Assembly: GCF_003148665.1 (NCBI RefSeq)
Contig: NZ_QGGQ01000002.1
Location: 124,001 to 188,000 of the forward strand
Direction of reading: 5' to 3'
Source of the DNA: Maribacter polysiphoniae
GTDB lineage: Bacteria; Bacteroidota; Bacteroidia; Flavobacteriales; Flavobacteriaceae
DNA length: 64,000 bases
Shown here: piece by piece, positions 35,944 through 41,140 of the stretch
Numbering within the stretch: position 1 is the first letter of the stretch
How the letters are laid out: each line of letters begins with the position of its first letter
Notes under the pieces: generated by a model
What the model was told of the DNA's origin: nothing
The model's database searches: none
The model's input: only the letters and a program-made list of their open reading frames with translations
Position numbers and translations under genes: made by a program

Positions 35944-36885
35944 ATGTCAAAAAGATTAGCCTATACCCTATCATTGCTTTTACTACTCTTGGTCAGTATT
36001 ACCGTAGCCAAATTAGTAGAGGTCAGAACAACGCCCAATCCTGAACAAAGGATATTGGGTAAGGCCATTTTTAAAGCACAAGAACCCATAAGTCCGATAA
36101 TCGTTGGGGATACGATTCGCATAGCTGGATATTTCAATTTTATCGATTCATTGGTAACCGCTTATGACAGCTTGACCAATTATCCGTTATCCGAACATCT
36201 TTTGGTCAATGCCAATTCATGGATTGTGGATACATTGGCCCAAACGGATTACTACAAAATGATCCAAAGGGACTCCTTTGTTTACGACCAACGCCAAATG
36301 ATTGTTTTGCGGCCAAACAATACTCTTTTGATACCGGATTCATTGGAAGCACAGTCGATCCTTGGGTCTTTCAAGAAAACAAGGATCGACATCAATTTGC
36401 CCGAATATAAATTAAGGATCATCACCGATTCCGTTTTAATGTATTCTTTCCCCATCAGGATTGGACAGAACAAAAAAAAGTATTTGAAAATGGGGGATAG
36501 AATGACAGATTTAAGGACACAAACAGGAAAAGGATCTGTCATAGGCTTTAGGAGAAATCCTGACTTTTACAACCCCGTTACGGGTAAACAGTTTTATTAT
36601 ACACATAGGGATGATAAGAACATGACCTTAATGCCTCAGATACCTTGGATAGAAACAGAAATCAACGGAATAAGGAATGGCCAATTGATACATCCGACCA
36701 CAAACCCCAACACTTTGGAAAAAGCATATTCCAATGGTTGTATCGGTGTAAAGGAAGGTGACGCCTGGCGAATATACTATCATTGCCCTATCGGAACCCC
36801 TCTGGATATCCGGTATGATTTGCACATTCCTATCACGCATGACTCCATATTGATCTTAGAGGACGTATATAACAAAGCATCATGA
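35944..36885 (+). CDS. L,D-transpeptidase, YkuD family
   Basis: An exported enzyme that makes 3-3 cross-links in peptidoglycan or attaches proteins to it. The 313-residue protein has an N-terminal signal anchor (LAYTLSLLLLLLVSITVAKL). The YkuD domain covers about 155-300. It begins YKLRIITDSVLMYSFPIRIG and has the catalytic histidine in IHPTTNP and the cysteine in SNGCIGVKEGD, the H-x(n)-SxGC pattern of the family. Helical residues between the anchor and the catalytic domain are of unknown fold. L,D-transpeptidases are commonly induced in slow-growing or stressed cells, which fits the operator shared with the preceding gene. Confidence 0.9.
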   Translation: MSKRLAYTLSLLLLLLVSITVAKLVEVRTTPNPEQRILGKAIFKAQEPISPIIVGDTIRIAGYFNFIDSLVTAYDSLTNYPLSEHLLVNANSWIVDTLAQTDYYKMIQRDSFVYDQRQMIVLRPNNTLLIPDSLEAQSILGSFKKTRIDINLPEYKLRIITDSVLMYSFPIRIGQNKKKYLKMGDRMTDLRTQTGKGSVIGFRRNPDFYNPVTGKQFYYTHRDDKNMTLMPQIPWIETEINGIRNGQLIHPTTNPNTLEKAYSNGCIGVKEGDAWRIYYHCPIGTPLDIRYDLHIPITHDSILILEDVYNKAS

Positions 36886-36943
36886 GTCTTTGCCCCTTAT
36901 AAAATAAATATGCCAATAAGTTTTATCTTCTAATGCGCCTTCC

Positions 36944-36951
36944 TATATTTG
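36944..36951 (+). promoter_or_regulatory. -7 box for tRNA-Leu
   Basis: TATATTTG matches TAnnTTTG and lies 14 bp before the mature tRNA 5' end, the usual short-leader arrangement. Confidence 0.6.
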
Positions 36952-36965
36952 CAGACCAATTTTAT

Positions 36966-37049
36966 GCCCACGTGGTGGAATTGGTAGACACGCTACCTTG
37001 AGGGGGTAGTGTTCGCAAGGACGTGCTGGTTCGACTCCAGTCGTGGGCA
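36966..37049 (+). tRNA. tRNA-Leu, anticodon GAG
   Basis: The acceptor arms pair as GCCCACG with CGTGGGC. The anticodon stem CTACC/GGTAG encloses a loop TTGAGGG with anticodon GAG, which reads CUC and CUU. A long variable arm of the class II type (TGTTCGCAAGGACG region), a T-loop TTCGACT and discriminator A identify leucine. CCA is not encoded. The last 20 bases (37030-37049) recur twice downstream as part of the 58-bp direct repeat. Confidence 0.95.
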
Positions 37050-37052
37050 CTT

Positions 37053-37083
37053 AGGCTTCCCCGTAAAAAGGGAGGCTTTTTTT
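37053..37083 (+). terminator. Terminator of tRNA-Leu (repeat copy 1)
   Basis: AGGCTTCCC pairs with GGGAGGCTT (two G-T pairs) around an 8-nt loop, followed by TTTTT. It is four bases after the tRNA and five bases before the GIY-YIG start codon. Confidence 0.85.
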
Positions 37084-37087
37084 GTTT

Positions 37088-37357
37088 ATGAAGTACTTCA
37101 CATACCTATTATATTCAGAAGCCTTTGACACCTTCTATAAAGGACAAACAAATAATGTACTTGAACGGCTCCACCTCCACAATTCCGGAAGGGAAAAAGC
37201 CACGGTACGCTATCGACCATGGAAACTTGTTTGGTTTACCGAAAAGAAAAGTAGGGCTGAAGCCATGGCCCTTGAAAGAAAACTTAAAAACCTCTCGAAA
37301 GAACGCACTAAGGAATTCATCGTAAAATATAGCAAAGGTGCTGGTTCTGATGTTTAG
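37088..37357 (+). CDS. GIY-YIG nuclease-domain protein, copy 1
   Basis: A stand-alone single-domain GIY-YIG protein of 89 residues. The variant motif is TYLLYS (for GIY) followed by FYKGQT (for YIG), the conserved arginine is in LERLHLHNSG, and the conserved glutamate is in SRAEAMALERKLKN. Such proteins are often labelled as a small UvrC-like or excinuclease subunit C, but they lack all other UvrC domains. The ATG at 37088 is the first base after the 58-bp repeat; an upstream TTG at 37082 lies in the terminator T run. There is no clear promoter or Shine-Dalgarno between the tRNA terminator and the ATG, so expression would need readthrough. It differs from copy 2 by three residues. Confidence 0.9.
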   Translation: MKYFTYLLYSEAFDTFYKGQTNNVLERLHLHNSGREKATVRYRPWKLVWFTEKKSRAEAMALERKLKNLSKERTKEFIVKYSKGAGSDV

Positions 37358-37396
37358 CTTGCTAAAATCAGAATGCTGACCAAAGCGTCAGCATTC
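37340..37396 (+). repeat. Two consecutive hairpins after GIY-YIG copy 1
   Basis: First hairpin: TCTGAT/ATCAGA and TTTAGC/GCTAAA with a bulged G and a TT loop, overlapping the stop codon. Second: GAATGCTGAC-CAAAGC-GTCAGCATTC (37371-37396), a perfect 10-bp stem whose last three bases begin the next 58-bp repeat. Confidence 0.75.
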
Positions 37397-37416
37397 GACT
37401 CCAGTCGTGGGCACTT

Positions 37417-37447
37417 AAGCTTCCCCGTAAAAAGGGAAGTTTTTTTC
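37417..37447 (+). terminator. Terminator, repeat copy 2
   Basis: AAGCTTCCC pairs with GGGAAGTTT around the same loop, followed by a T run. It has compensating changes relative to copy 1 and stays foldable. Confidence 0.75.
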
Positions 37448-37451
37448 GTTT

Positions 37452-37721
37452 ATGAAGTACTTCACATACCTATTATATTCTGAAGCCTTTGACACCTTCT
37501 ATAAAGGACAAACAAATAATGTACTTGAACGGCTCCACCGCCACAATTCCGGAAGGGAAAAAGCCACGGCACGCTATCGACCATGGAAACTTGTTTGGTT
37601 TACCGAAAAAAAAAGTAGGCCTGAAGCCATGGCCCTTGAAAGAAAACTTAAAAACCTCTCGAAAGAACGCACTAAGGAATTCATCGTAAAATATAGCAAA
37701 GGTGCTGGTTCTGATGTTTAG
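37452..37721 (+). CDS. GIY-YIG nuclease-domain protein, copy 2
   Basis: The tandem duplicate of copy 1, also 89 residues. All the nuclease landmarks are kept (TYLLYS, FYKGQT, the LERLHRHNSG arginine, ERKLKNLSKE glutamate). Of five base differences inside the gene, two are silent and three change residues (Leu to Arg in the HxHN motif, Val to Ala, Ala to Pro). Copy 2 has the residues that look more typical of relatives, such as HRHNSG and SRPEA. Both reading frames are intact, which argues that the duplication is recent or under selection. As for copy 1, the gene begins directly after a terminator. Confidence 0.9.
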   Translation: MKYFTYLLYSEAFDTFYKGQTNNVLERLHRHNSGREKATARYRPWKLVWFTEKKSRPEAMALERKLKNLSKERTKEFIVKYSKGAGSDV

Positions 37722-37760
37722 CTTGCTAAAATCAGAATGCTGACCAAAGCGTCAGCATTC
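37704..37760 (+). repeat. Two consecutive hairpins after GIY-YIG copy 2
   Basis: Identical pair to that after copy 1, with GAATGCTGAC at 37735-37744 pairing with GTCAGCATTC at 37751-37760. Confidence 0.75.
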
Positions 37761-37780
37761 GACTCCAGTCGTGGGCACTT

Positions 37781-37811
37781 AGGCTTCCCCGTAAAAAGGG
37801 AGGCTTTTTTC
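37781..37811 (+). terminator. Terminator, repeat copy 3
   Basis: The same stem and loop as the tRNA-Leu terminator (AGGCTTCCC/GGGAGGCTT), followed by TTTT. It closes the array. Confidence 0.8.
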
Positions 37812-37852
37812 GTTTTTAGTTTAGACCCTTTTTTGGATTTTAACTTTCCTTT

Positions 37853-37884
37853 TTGATATCCGTACCAAATAAATTTTATATTTG
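37853..37884 (+). promoter_or_regulatory. Promoter of the carotenoid operon
   Basis: A TTG (37853-37855) and a perfect TATATTTG box (37877-37884) are separated by 21 bp, a full match to the Bacteroidota consensus. The ATG at 37906 is 21 bp after the box. Confidence 0.75.
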
Positions 37885-37905
37885 TTTAAACTTTTTATTC
37901 AAAAG

Positions 37906-38811
37906 ATGAACAATATTAAAAAGAATTTCAGTATCCGGGATTTGGAAAACCTATCGGGAATAAAGGCACATACCATACGGATTTGGGAAAAAAGGTATAA
38001 TCTACTTTCCCCTGAGAGAACCACGACCAATATTAGGACCTACAGTCTTCAAAGTCTACAAAAGCTACTGAACATCACCCTGTTATATAACAATGGGCAT
38101 AAGATATCAAAAATAGCAGAATTGAAAGAAGCTGATATCCCTGTAAAGGTCCAGGAAATCGCGACTGTCCAAAACAGTAAAAACCATGTGCTGAATGCCT
38201 TTAAAATGGCCATGATAAATTTTGACCAAACCCGTTTTGCGATTACCTACAATGGTTTGTTGGCCGATTACTCTTTCCGTGATATTTTCAAGGATTATTT
38301 CATCCCCTTACTTCATGAGCTTGGACTTTTATGGCAAACCGATACCATTACCCCCGCCCATGAACATTTTATAACAGGATTGATCAAACAAAAAATACAG
38401 GTCAATATAGAAAAGTTACAGATCAATGAACCCACAAAGAAGGACAAGACCTTTGTTTTGTATTTACCAGAAGGTGAAATACATGAAATAGGATTGCTAT
38501 ACCTCAATTATGAGATTTCATTGCAGGGTTACAAGTCCATCTACCTTGGCCAATCCATCCCTTTGGATAATTTAGGGGAATTGATGGGGTTGGTTGAAAA
38601 CATTTATTTCATATCTTACTTCACAGTTGCACCCGCCAAGGATAAAATAGGAAAGTACATTGAAGGACTTTCCCAAGCGATTGTCAAGGATATAGATTGT
38701 CAAGTTTGGTTATTGGGTCGGCAAACCCAATATTTAGATTTCGACAACCTTTCCCCAAACATAAAAATATTTGATTCCATAGAGCAATTGGTAGCACAGG
38801 TACAAGATTAA
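37906..38811 (+). CDS. CarH/LitR-like MerR regulator, probable B12 light sensor
   Basis: A 301-residue regulator. The N-terminus is a MerR-type HTH (NFSIRDLENLSGIKAHTIRI, then WEKRYNLLSPER). The middle helical bundle carries W-x9-EH (WQTDTITPAHEH), the motif that caps adenosylcobalamin in CarH. The C-terminal Rossmann-like domain carries EGEIHEIG where CarH has DxHxxG, with Asp replaced by Glu and the cobalt-ligand His kept. The start is ATG 37906, since the -7 box occupies the bases just upstream. It is the first gene of an operon with crtI, crtB and crtZ. By analogy it would repress carotenoid synthesis in the dark and release it in light. Confidence 0.85.
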   Translation: MNNIKKNFSIRDLENLSGIKAHTIRIWEKRYNLLSPERTTTNIRTYSLQSLQKLLNITLLYNNGHKISKIAELKEADIPVKVQEIATVQNSKNHVLNAFKMAMINFDQTRFAITYNGLLADYSFRDIFKDYFIPLLHELGLLWQTDTITPAHEHFITGLIKQKIQVNIEKLQINEPTKKDKTFVLYLPEGEIHEIGLLYLNYEISLQGYKSIYLGQSIPLDNLGELMGLVENIYFISYFTVAPAKDKIGKYIEGLSQAIVKDIDCQVWLLGRQTQYLDFDNLSPNIKIFDSIEQLVAQVQD

Positions 38812-38834: not shown

Positions 38835-40292
38835 ATGGGTAAAAAAGTTATCATAATCGGTTCGGGGTTTTCATCGCTTTCAGCGTCCTGCTACTTGGCC
38901 AAATGGGGTTTTGATGTGGCTGTATATGAAAAAAACAGTTCAATCGGCGGTAGGGCTGGTCAAATGGTGAAAGAGGGATTCACTTTTGACCTAGGCCCAA
39001 GTTGGTATTGGATGCCCGATATTTTCGACAAGTTCTTTGCCGACTTTGGAAAGCAGACCAGTGACTATTACACTTTGCACAAATTGAGTCCGGCCTATAA
39101 AATATTCTTCTCGGACGATTCGATTACGATTGGTGATACTATGGATAAGATCTGTTCGGAATTTGAAAGAATCGAGAAAGGGAGTTCCGTGCATTTAAGA
39201 AAATTCATTTCCGACGCCCAAGAAAACTATGATATTGCCATAAACAAGGTTGTTCTTAAACCTGGATTATCCCCTTTTGAACTTATTACCCCTGACACCA
39301 TTCTAAAGGTTGACCAATTTTTTAAAACCATCAGTGGGGAAGTCAGGAAAAAATTCAAAAATCCAAAATTGATTTCCACGTTAGAGTTCCCTGTCCTTTT
39401 TTTGGGAGCAAAACCCAGTAATACGCCCTCATTCTATAGTTTTATGAACTTTGCCGACTTCGGTTTGGGCACTTGGCACCCCGAGGGAGGCATGTATGGG
39501 ATTATAAAGGCAATGCATGCGTTAGCCTTGGAGCTTGGAGTAGACTTTCATGTAGATAGTCCTGTTGGCAAGATCCGTGTTGCCAATGGTAAAACAATCG
39601 GTGTTACCGTCAATGATCAGGACATTGATGCTGATTTTGTACTCAGTGGGGCCGATTACCATCATTCCGAAACATTACTTGACCCAAAATACCGACAATA
39701 CAGTGAAAAATACTGGGACCAAAGAACTTTTGCACCTTCCTCCTTGCTGTTTTATGTAGGTTTAAACAAAAAACTAAAGAATATTGAGCATCATAATCTC
39801 TTTTTTGACACTGATTTTGAGCAACACACCTATGACATATATGACAAACCGCAATGGCCGAAAAAACCATTGTTCTATGCAAATTTTCCGTCGAAAACGG
39901 ATTTAACCATGGCACCCAAGAATTGTGAAACAGGATTTTTTCTGATTCCCATTGCTCCCGGACTCGAAGACACCCCCGAATTAAGAAAACAATACTTCGA
40001 CCTTATTATGGAAAGGCTGGAGACCAGAACCGATCAAAAAATCAAAGATGGAATATTGTTTTACGAATCGTTTTGTGTCAATGATTTTATCGAGAAATAC
40101 AATTCCTATAAAGGTAATGCCTATGGTATGGCAAATACCTTGACCCAAACCGCTTTTTTAAGACCTAAATTGAAAAGTAAAAAAGTTAAAAACTTATATT
40201 TTACCGGACAATTGACTGTTCCAGGGCCAGGCGTACCCCCTTCCCTGATTTCAGGAAAACTTGTATCAGAATTAATCTCAAATAACAAATAA
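38835..40292 (+). CDS. crtI: Phytoene desaturase
   Basis: An FAD enzyme that converts phytoene to lycopene. The N-terminal dinucleotide-binding fold is complete: VIIIGSGFSSLSASCYLAKW, then VAVYEKNSSIGGRAG. The C-terminal FAD motif is LYFTGQLTVPGPGVPPSLIS near residues 452-475, characteristic of CrtI enzymes. At 485 residues it has normal length and no signal peptide. It is separated from the regulator by 23 bp and from crtB by 8 bp. Confidence 0.95.
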   Translation: MGKKVIIIGSGFSSLSASCYLAKWGFDVAVYEKNSSIGGRAGQMVKEGFTFDLGPSWYWMPDIFDKFFADFGKQTSDYYTLHKLSPAYKIFFSDDSITIGDTMDKICSEFERIEKGSSVHLRKFISDAQENYDIAINKVVLKPGLSPFELITPDTILKVDQFFKTISGEVRKKFKNPKLISTLEFPVLFLGAKPSNTPSFYSFMNFADFGLGTWHPEGGMYGIIKAMHALALELGVDFHVDSPVGKIRVANGKTIGVTVNDQDIDADFVLSGADYHHSETLLDPKYRQYSEKYWDQRTFAPSSLLFYVGLNKKLKNIEHHNLFFDTDFEQHTYDIYDKPQWPKKPLFYANFPSKTDLTMAPKNCETGFFLIPIAPGLEDTPELRKQYFDLIMERLETRTDQKIKDGILFYESFCVNDFIEKYNSYKGNAYGMANTLTQTAFLRPKLKSKKVKNLYFTGQLTVPGPGVPPSLISGKLVSELISNNK

Positions 40293-40300
40293 GCAATAAA

Positions 40301-41140
40301 ATGAAGGCATTATTCGACAAAGTATCCTATGATTGCAGTAAGCGAGTGACACAGACTTACAGCACTTCATTTTCACTTGCCACAAAAATGCTGGGCGCTT
40401 CCATTCGTCCGGACATATATAATATTTATGGTTTTGTGCGATTTGCGGATGAGATTGTAGATAGTTTCCACGATTATAAAACCGAGGAACTTTTCAATGA
40501 TTTTGAACAGAGCCTTAAATATGCACTTGAGCATAGAATCAGTATGAATCCCATCTTGAATTCATTCCAGCATACATACCACAAATATCAAATTCCATAT
40601 CACTTGGTCGAATCGTTTATGAAAAGTATGCGTATGGACTTGACCAAAAACACCTATTATTCCGAAAAGGAATTCAAAGACTATATTTATGGTTCTGCCG
40701 ATGTGGTGGGACTCATGTGCCTTATGGTTTTTGTTAAAGGAGATCGGGAAAAATACGAATCCCTGAAAGATTCTGCCATGTCATTAGGCTCCGCTTTTCA
40801 AAAGGTGAATTTTCTGAGGGACTTAAAAGCTGATTTCGAAGTGCTACATCGCTCCTATTTTCCGAACACGGATCTTAACCAGTTGGATGAGGATTCAAAA
40901 AGAAGGATCATCAACGAAATAAAGGATGATTTCCAAAGGAGCTATAGCGGTATCCAGCAATTGCCAAGGGAGGCCAAATTAGGGGTCTATACCGCCTATA
41001 AATATTATTATAGATTATTGGGCAAGTTGGAAAAAACCCCTTCAACCCTAATTCGCCAAGCCCGAATAAGGGTTCCCGATTATCAAAAATTTGGACTTTT
41101 GGCAGAATCTTATGTCAATTTTAAATTAAATTTGGTTTAA
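40301..41140 (+). CDS. crtB: Phytoene synthase
   Basis: Joins two geranylgeranyl diphosphates head to head to form phytoene. The two metal-binding aspartate motifs of the squalene/phytoene synthase family are visible: DEIVD at about 49-53 within YGFVRFADEIVDSF, and the second in NFLRDLKAD at about 168-176. The early SFSLATKMLG matches the family. At 279 residues it is normal. The gene is followed by crtZ after one base, so translation may be coupled. Confidence 0.95.
   Translation: MKALFDKVSYDCSKRVTQTYSTSFSLATKMLGASIRPDIYNIYGFVRFADEIVDSFHDYKTEELFNDFEQSLKYALEHRISMNPILNSFQHTYHKYQIPYHLVESFMKSMRMDLTKNTYYSEKEFKDYIYGSADVVGLMCLMVFVKGDREKYESLKDSAMSLGSAFQKVNFLRDLKADFEVLHRSYFPNTDLNQLDEDSKRRIINEIKDDFQRSYSGIQQLPREAKLGVYTAYKYYYRLLGKLEKTPSTLIRQARIRVPDYQKFGLLAESYVNFKLNLV

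Follow-up and report, generated by a model that had tools for sequence, protein, structure and literature searches.

The window analysed here, 64,000 nucleotides of Maribacter polysiphoniae DNA (contig NZ_QGGQ01000002.1, positions 124,001 to 188,000 of the forward strand), contains an intact tRNA-Leu(GAG) gene followed by two tandem units, each of which combines a copy of the tRNA 3' end with a gene for a small GIY-YIG nuclease. Units of this kind, which we call modules and regard as candidate mobile elements of tRNA genes, are the subject of this report. The features of the locus are listed below, with the two neighbouring genes last.

36966..37050, + strand: tRNA-Leu(GAG), intact, the presumed target (ARAGORN; Rfam RF00005)
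37030..37393, + strand: unit 1, 364 bp (direct repeats)
37030..37087, + strand: tRNA 3' end and terminator, copy 1, part of the intact tRNA (direct repeats)
37053..37083, + strand: intrinsic terminator, by eye of the type found in element-bearing relatives and different from that of the one empty site (fold z -3.6 for 37040-37090)
37088..37357, + strand: GIY-YIG nuclease gene 1, 89 amino acids (Pfam PF01541, 1.3e-15)
37338..37347, + strand: GTGCTGGTTC, which repeats the T-arm 5' strand of the tRNA, within the 3' end of nuclease gene 1
37346..37372, + strand: hairpin 1 of unit 1, which includes the nuclease stop codon
37371..37396, + strand: hairpin 2 of unit 1, reaching as far as the T-loop boundary in the tRNA copy
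37394..37757, + strand: unit 2, 364 bp (direct repeats; 355 of 364 bases as in unit 1)
37394..37451, + strand: tRNA 3' end and terminator, copy 2 (93% identical to copy 1)
37452..37721, + strand: GIY-YIG nuclease gene 2, 89 amino acids (Pfam PF01541, 7e-16)
37702..37711, + strand: copy of the T-arm 5' strand (GTGCTGGTTC) in unit 2
37710..37736, + strand: hairpin 1 of unit 2
37735..37760, + strand: hairpin 2 of unit 2
37758..37815, + strand: closing tRNA 3' end and terminator, copy 3 (98% identical to copy 1)
35944..36885, + strand: left anchor, YkuD L,D-transpeptidase gene (Pfam)
37906..38811, + strand: right anchor, MerR/B12-binding regulator gene (Pfam), which served to locate the empty site

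An initial annotation, made from the sequence alone, had described two 364-bp units and a 58-bp closing copy after tRNA-Leu(GAG), and the direct repeats bear this out: the 58-base repeat starts at 37030, 37394 and 37758, a spacing of exactly 364 bases, with 93-98% identity to the first copy. Its description of the repeat as a tRNA end with its terminator also stands, with the correction that the tRNA portion measures 21 bases by the ARAGORN bounds and not 20. In agreement with that annotation, each unit contains the tRNA 3' end and the terminator, followed by a GIY-YIG gene that is intact and encodes 89 residues, and by two hairpins placed back to back. Both nuclease frames are open, starting with ATG at 37088 and 37452, and their proteins differ at residues 30, 40 and 57. 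The region 3' of the nuclease gene folds into two adjoining hairpins (z -3.0 and -2.7 against shuffles in the two copies), which recur 364 bases further on. Since GTGCTGGTTC closes the nuclease gene and hairpin 2 stops at the T-loop, the outer tRNA copy resembles a T arm in which two hairpins replace the loop.

A group I intron in the tRNA gene was considered and rejected, the tRNA being intact by ARAGORN and no intron family matching up to E 1 in 36800-38000. Rfam detected no RNA family besides tRNA in the same interval, bar a Streptococcus small RNA match far under its threshold. The YkuD left neighbour is common to three of the 11 named tRNA-Leu loci compared. To the right of the MerR gene, at 38835-41140 of the window, lie frames which by eye resemble phytoene desaturase and phytoene synthase, a carotenoid cluster.

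The locus was sought through the MerR protein in 12 genomes of Maribacter, eight of which gave a match; these and all other presence/absence comparisons are between species, with one genome each. Two units occupy the tRNA-Leu site in G000, two in G004 and one in G007, and the site is empty in G002, where the tRNA and its own terminator are followed by 134 bp to the MerR start. A decayed nuclease gene without an outer tRNA copy is found in G003, contigs break within the repeat in G001 and G008, and the MerR match of G005 is remote (38% identity) and lacks the tRNA. The units sit between the tRNA and its old 3' neighbourhood, since 128, 130 and 135 bp separate the outer fragment from MerR in G000, G004 and G007, much as 134 bp separate the tRNA from it in the empty G002. 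The terminator adjoining the tRNA is, by eye, of one kind in G000, G003, G004 and G007 and of another in the sole empty genome; the tRNA-Leu of the window differs from the empty-site tRNA of G002 by a single base (position 51). The ratio of nonsynonymous to synonymous substitution rates (dN/dS) for the nuclease is 0.14-0.27 among three species (the window, G001 and G004), while the two copies within the window have accumulated too few changes between them to be judged. The tRNA-Leu/MerR neighbourhood is common to Maribacter and other module-bearing loci of the Flavobacteriaceae, from several genera.

In a second genus, genome G246 carries five units 3' of tRNA-Met(CAT), with six tRNA 3' ends at steps of 365-366 bases. 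The left-hand gene, used there as the anchor, gave a match in 38 of 41 genomes of that genus, and among the 30 loci compared the array occurs once, in G246. The 29 other tRNA-Met loci, which include a relative with a 98% identical anchor protein, showed neither a nuclease match nor a second exact tRNA 3' end (L346 being only 63 bases long there). The upstream flank could be aligned in all 17 relatives compared and the downstream flank in four of the 17; the downstream gene starts 136 bp past the last fragment in G246 and 115, 114 and 203 bp past the tRNA in three empty loci. The G246 tRNA-Met has the same sequence as in three empties and differs by a single base from that of a fourth, and the terminator which follows it is of the array kind, unlike that of the empties. 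Presence and absence at a defined target with conserved flanks, as observed here between species, is a trait of homing elements. The range from empty sites to several units in two genera further supports the proposal of the initial annotation that a module with its own tRNA end can come and go, leaving the tRNA unharmed.

A search profile built from 24 proteins was matched in 68 of 296 genomes of the order at 1e-20. For the phylum, at 1e-19, the count was 116 of 296 genomes, and one genome alone gave as many as 16 matches. We examined 268 loci: 125 in a first set that takes in the clusters listed for the order, with extra views of the same arrays omitted, 63 from the phylum-level set (among the matches listed), and 80 named loci of 173 found, among which are bins with the titles Ignavibacteria, Cloacimonadota and Marinimicrobia. 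Of 228 rows, eight duplicated an entry from another collection; they were removed from the pooled, upstream-arm and array counts and kept in the fragment-boundary counts. With duplicates out, 216 of the 220 tRNA-bearing loci have the tRNA within 300 bp, and in all 216 the nuclease and the tRNA share a strand. The nuclease lies on the tRNA 3' side at 161 of these loci, on the 5' side at 51 and between tRNAs at four, and more than one nuclease copy is present at 60. ARAGORN assigned 30 anticodon labels among them, of which SeC and Stop are possibly miscalls. Across the nuclease from its tRNA, 166 of the 216 loci carry a fragment of that same tRNA, and 160 of these fragments score above all 30 tRNAs of other isotypes. 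The order-level set alone comprises 99 clusters, 87 with a tRNA, which lies within 300 bp in 84 and on the same strand in 84/84; a tRNA fragment occurs in 71, and 64 of these beat all 30 controls. By comparison with the 84 of 99 order-level clusters, a random gene would be expected to have a tRNA within 300 bp in about 1.4% of cases (assuming 55 tRNAs in a 3.7-Mb genome). The initial annotation had named orthologues confined to one fixed locus, with no matching tRNA repeats, as the pattern that would tell against its reading; what we find is a fragment of the own tRNA at 166 of 216 loci and an occupancy that varies in two genera.

Fragment boundaries were counted with duplicates included. On the 3' side, 93 of 128 fragment matches reach the tRNA 3' end, and the boundaries peak at 31 bases, the edge of the anticodon stem (18 loci), and at 21 bases, in the T-loop (14 loci). 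The far-side fragment is also found at loci with a single nuclease copy, such as L009. On the 5' side, 28 of 42 fragments start at the tRNA 5' end, with a peak at position 22 (10 loci). The claim that a module carries the 3' end of the adjacent tRNA needs correction for the 51 of 216 loci on the 5' side, which have tRNA 5' ends instead. At 40 of the 51 loci in this class the end of the nuclease domain falls no further than 20 bases from the start of the tRNA, and at L011, L013, L017, L019, L023, L026 and L031 the frame extends into the tRNA. The genome from which the window derives has its own example: a second tandem pair lies upstream of tRNA-Pro(GGG), with copies of the tRNA 5' end and hairpins replacing arms.

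No ARAGORN tRNA was found within the fetched stretch at 40 of the 268 loci, 24 of them at a contig edge and 16 not. Among the latter, L005 and L006 (own genome, C11 and C6) are remoter GIY-YIG genes flanked by several short palindromic repeats; L073 has a tRNA by Rfam; L033, L082, L085, L184, L240, L247 and L267 show, by eye or by motif, pieces of tRNA 3' ends near the gene; L182 lies by an RNase P RNA; and L105, L119, L146, L180 and L239 are without explanation. At L182 (1150-1800, - strand, in G479), the stop of a module-like GIY-YIG frame, near 1220-1218, falls within an RNase P RNA that cmscan places at 750-1249 on the strand of the nuclease, about 30 bases from where that RNA starts. Upstream lie an inverted copy of the RNase P RNA start and a piece reading GGAAAGTC; the family may thus also use RNase P RNA. 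Other GIY-YIG genes, at 30 loci from three genomes, have an ARAGORN tRNA in 19 cases. The 11 loci without one are L290, L293, L308, L311, L314 and L317 of the own genome, none of them modules, L288, L292, L313 and L316 of G689, and L300, which belongs to an array whose tRNA falls outside the fetched stretch. Contigs often terminate at or near the repeats (L007, L010, L044, L058, L078, L130, L144 and others), and copy numbers in draft genomes are therefore probably lower bounds.

The hairpins of the window have counterparts elsewhere. Among 110 loci with an exactly located fragment core, 57 have a stem of at least 7 pairs within 56 bases at the nuclease-fragment junction, compared with 2.4% of shuffles, which keep two-base blocks only, and 12 of 100 control stretches taken further out. 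At 44 of the 110 junctions the best stem abuts the fragment exactly, and hairpin cores are, by eye, common to the window, Psychroflexus (L014) and a Sphingobacteriales bin (L214). We take it that the junction hairpin may represent the end of the element at the cut arm. The tRNA sequence just 5' of the boundary recurs, over at least 7 bases, before the fragment at 8 of 18 T-loop boundaries (controls 2.2%) and at 12 of 17 boundaries below 19 nucleotides (controls 5.9%). At anticodon-stem boundaries the recurrence was found in 2 of 23 (controls 4.1%), and at boundaries of 23-29 nucleotides in none of 12. At L297 (400-2500, in G638), 450-base units stand at tRNA-Leu(CAG), and a hairpin runs directly into TTCGAGTCC.

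Tandem arrays decay outward. In 58 arrays of at least two copies, with the intact copy nearest the tRNA as the query, 29 have all copies intact, 22 are broken at the far end only, two at the near end only, and five touch a contig edge, one of which (L222) has a broken near copy. The chance of far-end-only decay in 22 of 24 is 1.8e-5. Several arrays are of unusual composition. At L014 (1080-2180, in G157, Psychroflexus curvus), four units of about 178 bases without a nuclease surround one nuclease unit after tRNA-Ser(TGA); they retain the terminator along with the tRNA 3' end and are possibly a non-autonomous form, and upstream there is a short piece bearing the tRNA 5' end. At L030 (850-1200, in G074), units at 78-base steps, each with a hairpin and bases 1 to 27 of tRNA-Arg(TCT), lie upstream of a tRNA which also has nuclease units on its 3' side; the assembly contains runs of N at this place. 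The arrays at L082, L085 and L184 are orphaned from a full tRNA; that of L082 (1400-4400, in G157) comprises eight units with tRNA 3' pieces, and no complete tRNA was found in the fetched stretch.

The lineages of the nuclease follow the identity of the tRNA. On a tree of 106 proteins with 79 columns and 21 tRNA labels, the tRNA label needs 28 changes, while 300 shuffles average 78.7 with a minimum of 72, and shuffles within genera need at least 51. The genus label needs 64 changes on the same tree, so the protein lineages track the tRNA more closely than the host genus. Such clustering fits target-bound homing.

Membership of the nuclease in the GIY-YIG superfamily is indicated by the Pfam match, by invariant residues and by the fold. 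Y6, Y17, G19, R27, H31, N32, E63 and K67 are kept in the 24 aligned proteins, and Y6, Y17, R27, H31 and E63 are invariant among them; the tyrosines, the arginine and the glutamate we take to have the active-site roles of a GIY-YIG nuclease. An AlphaFold model (mean pLDDT 89.5) has a sole fold match below 0.001, the UPF0213 protein BH0048 (1zg2, 7.4e-5), with Slx1 weaker, from 3.3e-3. Profile searches likewise gave UPF0213/YhbQ-type proteins (1zg2, 2.1e-14; 1ywl) and Slx1 as best matches, and to our knowledge neither mobility nor tRNA linkage has been described for either. The window protein had no match by tblastn at 1e-3 in 50,697 phage records, a search that left plasmids and viral contigs aside, and no NCBIfam or PHROGs match naming it at 0.01. 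For its tRNA-Pro relative L003 there is a weak match to a phage endonuclease profile (0.00066), and one to a homing endonuclease profile at 0.0024. The nuclease is little more than a catalytic domain and a separate DNA-binding domain is absent; specificity must therefore come from the domain itself, from the shape of the substrate or from a partner. An attractive possibility would be a structure-specific cut made where a tRNA arm is extruded.

Taken together, these sequence data lead us to conclude that the two units of the window are probably copies of a minimal mobile element of the homing type, specialised for one tRNA gene and supplying it with a replacement end, and that elements of this type probably form a widespread family. 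In such a scheme the nuclease would cut an arm of its cognate tRNA gene, and the element would be copied in when the break is repaired from a chromosome that carries it. The element would supply a new tRNA 3' end and terminator in the 3' class, or a new 5' end in the 5' class, and because it brings this replacement the tRNA would remain intact. The displaced tRNA end would stay on the far side, joined to the hairpins of the element, and further insertion or unequal exchange between repeats would build tandem arrays whose outer units decay. Carriers have an unchanged tRNA part, a different terminator and flank, and an outer copy often interrupted by hairpins. We infer cleavage of the tRNA gene, homing by repair and the role of the hairpins from what the sequences display: the anatomy of the units, empty and filled sites between species, the same-strand association with tRNAs, clustering by tRNA, hairpins at about half of the junctions and conservation of the nuclease.

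Several observations weigh against this proposal. No fragment scoring at least 12 was found at 50 of the 216 loci, 53 of the 110 junctions lack a 7-pair stem, and an in-frame TGA interrupts the outer of the two nuclease copies at tRNA-Pro in the own genome. Outward decay could come from selection on the tRNA alone. Branch support in the nuclease tree is modest (13 of 103 inner branches starred, from only 79 columns), and since several genera have the tRNA-Leu/MerR site in common, part of the clustering by tRNA may reflect vertical inheritance with losses. The outermost terminator in G246 is also array-type, so the outer piece there is not simply the old end of the host; simple displacement does not predict this, and it needs gene conversion or the transfer of a unit with both ends. 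Self-protection presents a further difficulty. Because the carrier tRNA matches the empty-site tRNA, carriers would remain open to cutting at any site confined to the tRNA. What protects them from their own nuclease must therefore be located outside the tRNA or elsewhere, and recognition would have to extend into the replaced flank.

Other explanations of the same loci may be offered. The modules may not be mobile at all: a nuclease gene beside a tRNA would be inherited vertically, slipped-strand or unequal exchange would make tandem copies that include a piece of the tRNA, and patchiness would be loss. The tandem arrangement and 97-98% identity of units 1 and 2, the neighbourhood that Maribacter shares with other module-bearing Flavobacteriaceae, and the decay observed in G003 all suit such a history. 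Tandem duplication alone, however, does not give a far-side tRNA fragment at single-copy loci such as L009, and of the 216 loci only 60 are multi-copy while 166 have the fragment. Nor does vertical descent sit easily with a tRNA-Met array at one of 30 loci and at none of the 29 others, the relative with the 98% identical anchor protein included, and it leaves unexplained the same-strand placement at 30 anticodon labels, mostly facing a fragment of the own tRNA. We consider this explanation unlikely. Among explanations that invoke an integrase, the unit could be a remnant of a tyrosine-recombinase island, with the 58-base copies as attachment sites of an enzyme acting at tRNA 3' ends. Such ends are classic attachment sites, and direct repeats do flank the unit. 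The unit nonetheless contains no frame of integrase length, only the nuclease and an overlapping 66-codon frame (an integrase acting in trans was not sought), and the same type of unit occurs at tRNA 5' ends in 51 of 216 loci, with repeat boundaries that vary along the tRNA and hairpins at many junctions; we regard an island remnant as very improbable.

A benefit to the host is conceivable if the nuclease were a toxin that attacks the tRNAs or tRNA genes of competitors or phages, with the linked copies as spare or protected targets. Nuclease lineages that follow tRNA identity and a low dN/dS are compatible with this, and phages in which SegB, a system discussed below, amplifies a tRNA gene are reported to resist a defence that cuts tRNA (PMC13096335). 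The complete tRNA beside the module is an ordinary one, however, and the copies cannot be spare tRNAs, since they are partial and often carry a hairpin where an arm should be; nor does the 364-bp unit show any apparent gene for a partner or for immunity. We give little credence to a toxin of this kind, and return to the homing-type element as the preferred account.

A broader proposal may be ventured, though only tentatively, and we would hesitate to wager on it as a whole. The modules would form a class of bacterial mobile elements of about 300-450 bp which colonise structured RNA genes from either side (30 tRNA anticodon labels, and RNase P RNA in one locus). A bare GIY-YIG domain would recognise one tRNA gene, possibly as an extruded arm, and swap in a new end, the hairpins on the displaced end would stop recutting, and lineages would have diversified by changing their tRNA target; the class would be undescribed before and among the smallest elements with their own gene. 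The elements may deserve a class of their own. If the proposal is correct, elements so small that they have escaped annotation are frequent colonists of tRNA genes in the phylum and in neighbouring groups, and they would lie behind some of the partial tRNA copies and some of the places where assemblies break at tRNA genes. The strategy of replacing the end of a target, known from yeast and fungal mitochondria, would then also operate in bacteria and on RNA genes. Nucleases of about 80-90 residues, each bound to one tRNA gene, would in addition constitute a natural set and a route to studying the specificity of the bare GIY-YIG domain.

Known systems share parts of this arrangement. REP/RAYT systems resemble the modules in having a small nuclease gene flanked by hairpins, and differ in their enzyme, a Y1 transposase where the modules have a GIY-YIG nuclease. 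A REP-like system was itself tried as an explanation and rejected: one hairpin pattern of the tRNA modules occurs at only 10 sites in the 5.1 Mb of the own genome, four of them in the tRNA-Pro array (one site for the reversed pattern as a control), and given this rarity we keep the modules apart from REP systems. Units such as ours were undescribed in bacterial chromosomes among the literature matches listed, a search that most subscription papers and all preprints fell outside.

Replacement of a target's end has precedents in fungi, which we cite from the portions of the sources available. Mobile open reading frames of fungal mitochondria (Allomyces, Glomus) combine an endonuclease gene with a replacement gene end, a carboxy-terminal duplication, and displace the native end downstream (PMC3630166). 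They resemble the modules in this combination and differ in using mitochondrial protein genes; neither arrays nor hairpins are described in that portion (PMC3630166). WHO elements of Torulaspora and Lachancea insert at FBA1, supply a replacement 3' end and leave the old end outside, and in their clusters the older units lie outward and decay (PMC7282813). The modules share the outward decay and may share the replacement end; the far-side fragment at 166 of 216 loci and the array-type terminator by the tRNA in G246 fit WHO-like end replacement, but the outermost terminator in G246 is array-type too, so that either end there may be the old one. WHO elements are nevertheless yeast elements with a protein gene as target and an endonuclease of intein-zinc finger type, whereas the modules have a GIY-YIG enzyme at tRNA genes (PMC7282813). 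The WHO replacement end differs in sequence from the original and gives resistance, whereas the tRNA part of a module is identical, and a 5'-side class like that of the modules is not described for WHO in the portion available (PMC7282813).

By analogy, the system that appears nearest to the modules in its working is phage SegB, which we compare by description rather than by alignment to SegB itself and from parts of the sources. SegB, of T4/T6 phages, is a free-standing GIY-YIG homing endonuclease in a phage tRNA cluster (PMC13096335; PMC2988022), and a T4 table gives its target as a tRNA intergenic region. According to the part available, SegB cleavage peaks within tRNA genes, with the motif RAWTSGAAC at 23 of 83 sites, a strict sequence preference is not required in vitro, and tRNA genes and segB are amplified together in tandem (PMC13096335). 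The modules differ in being chromosomal and mostly 0.3-0.45 kb long, and in having replacement tRNA ends, terminators and junction hairpins, none of which that part reports for SegB (PMC13096335). The two are alike in a GIY-YIG gene beside tRNA genes and in tandem amplification (PMC13096335), and we read the SegB motif RAWTSGAAC as reverse-complementary to the T-loop, which is among the two most frequent module boundaries.

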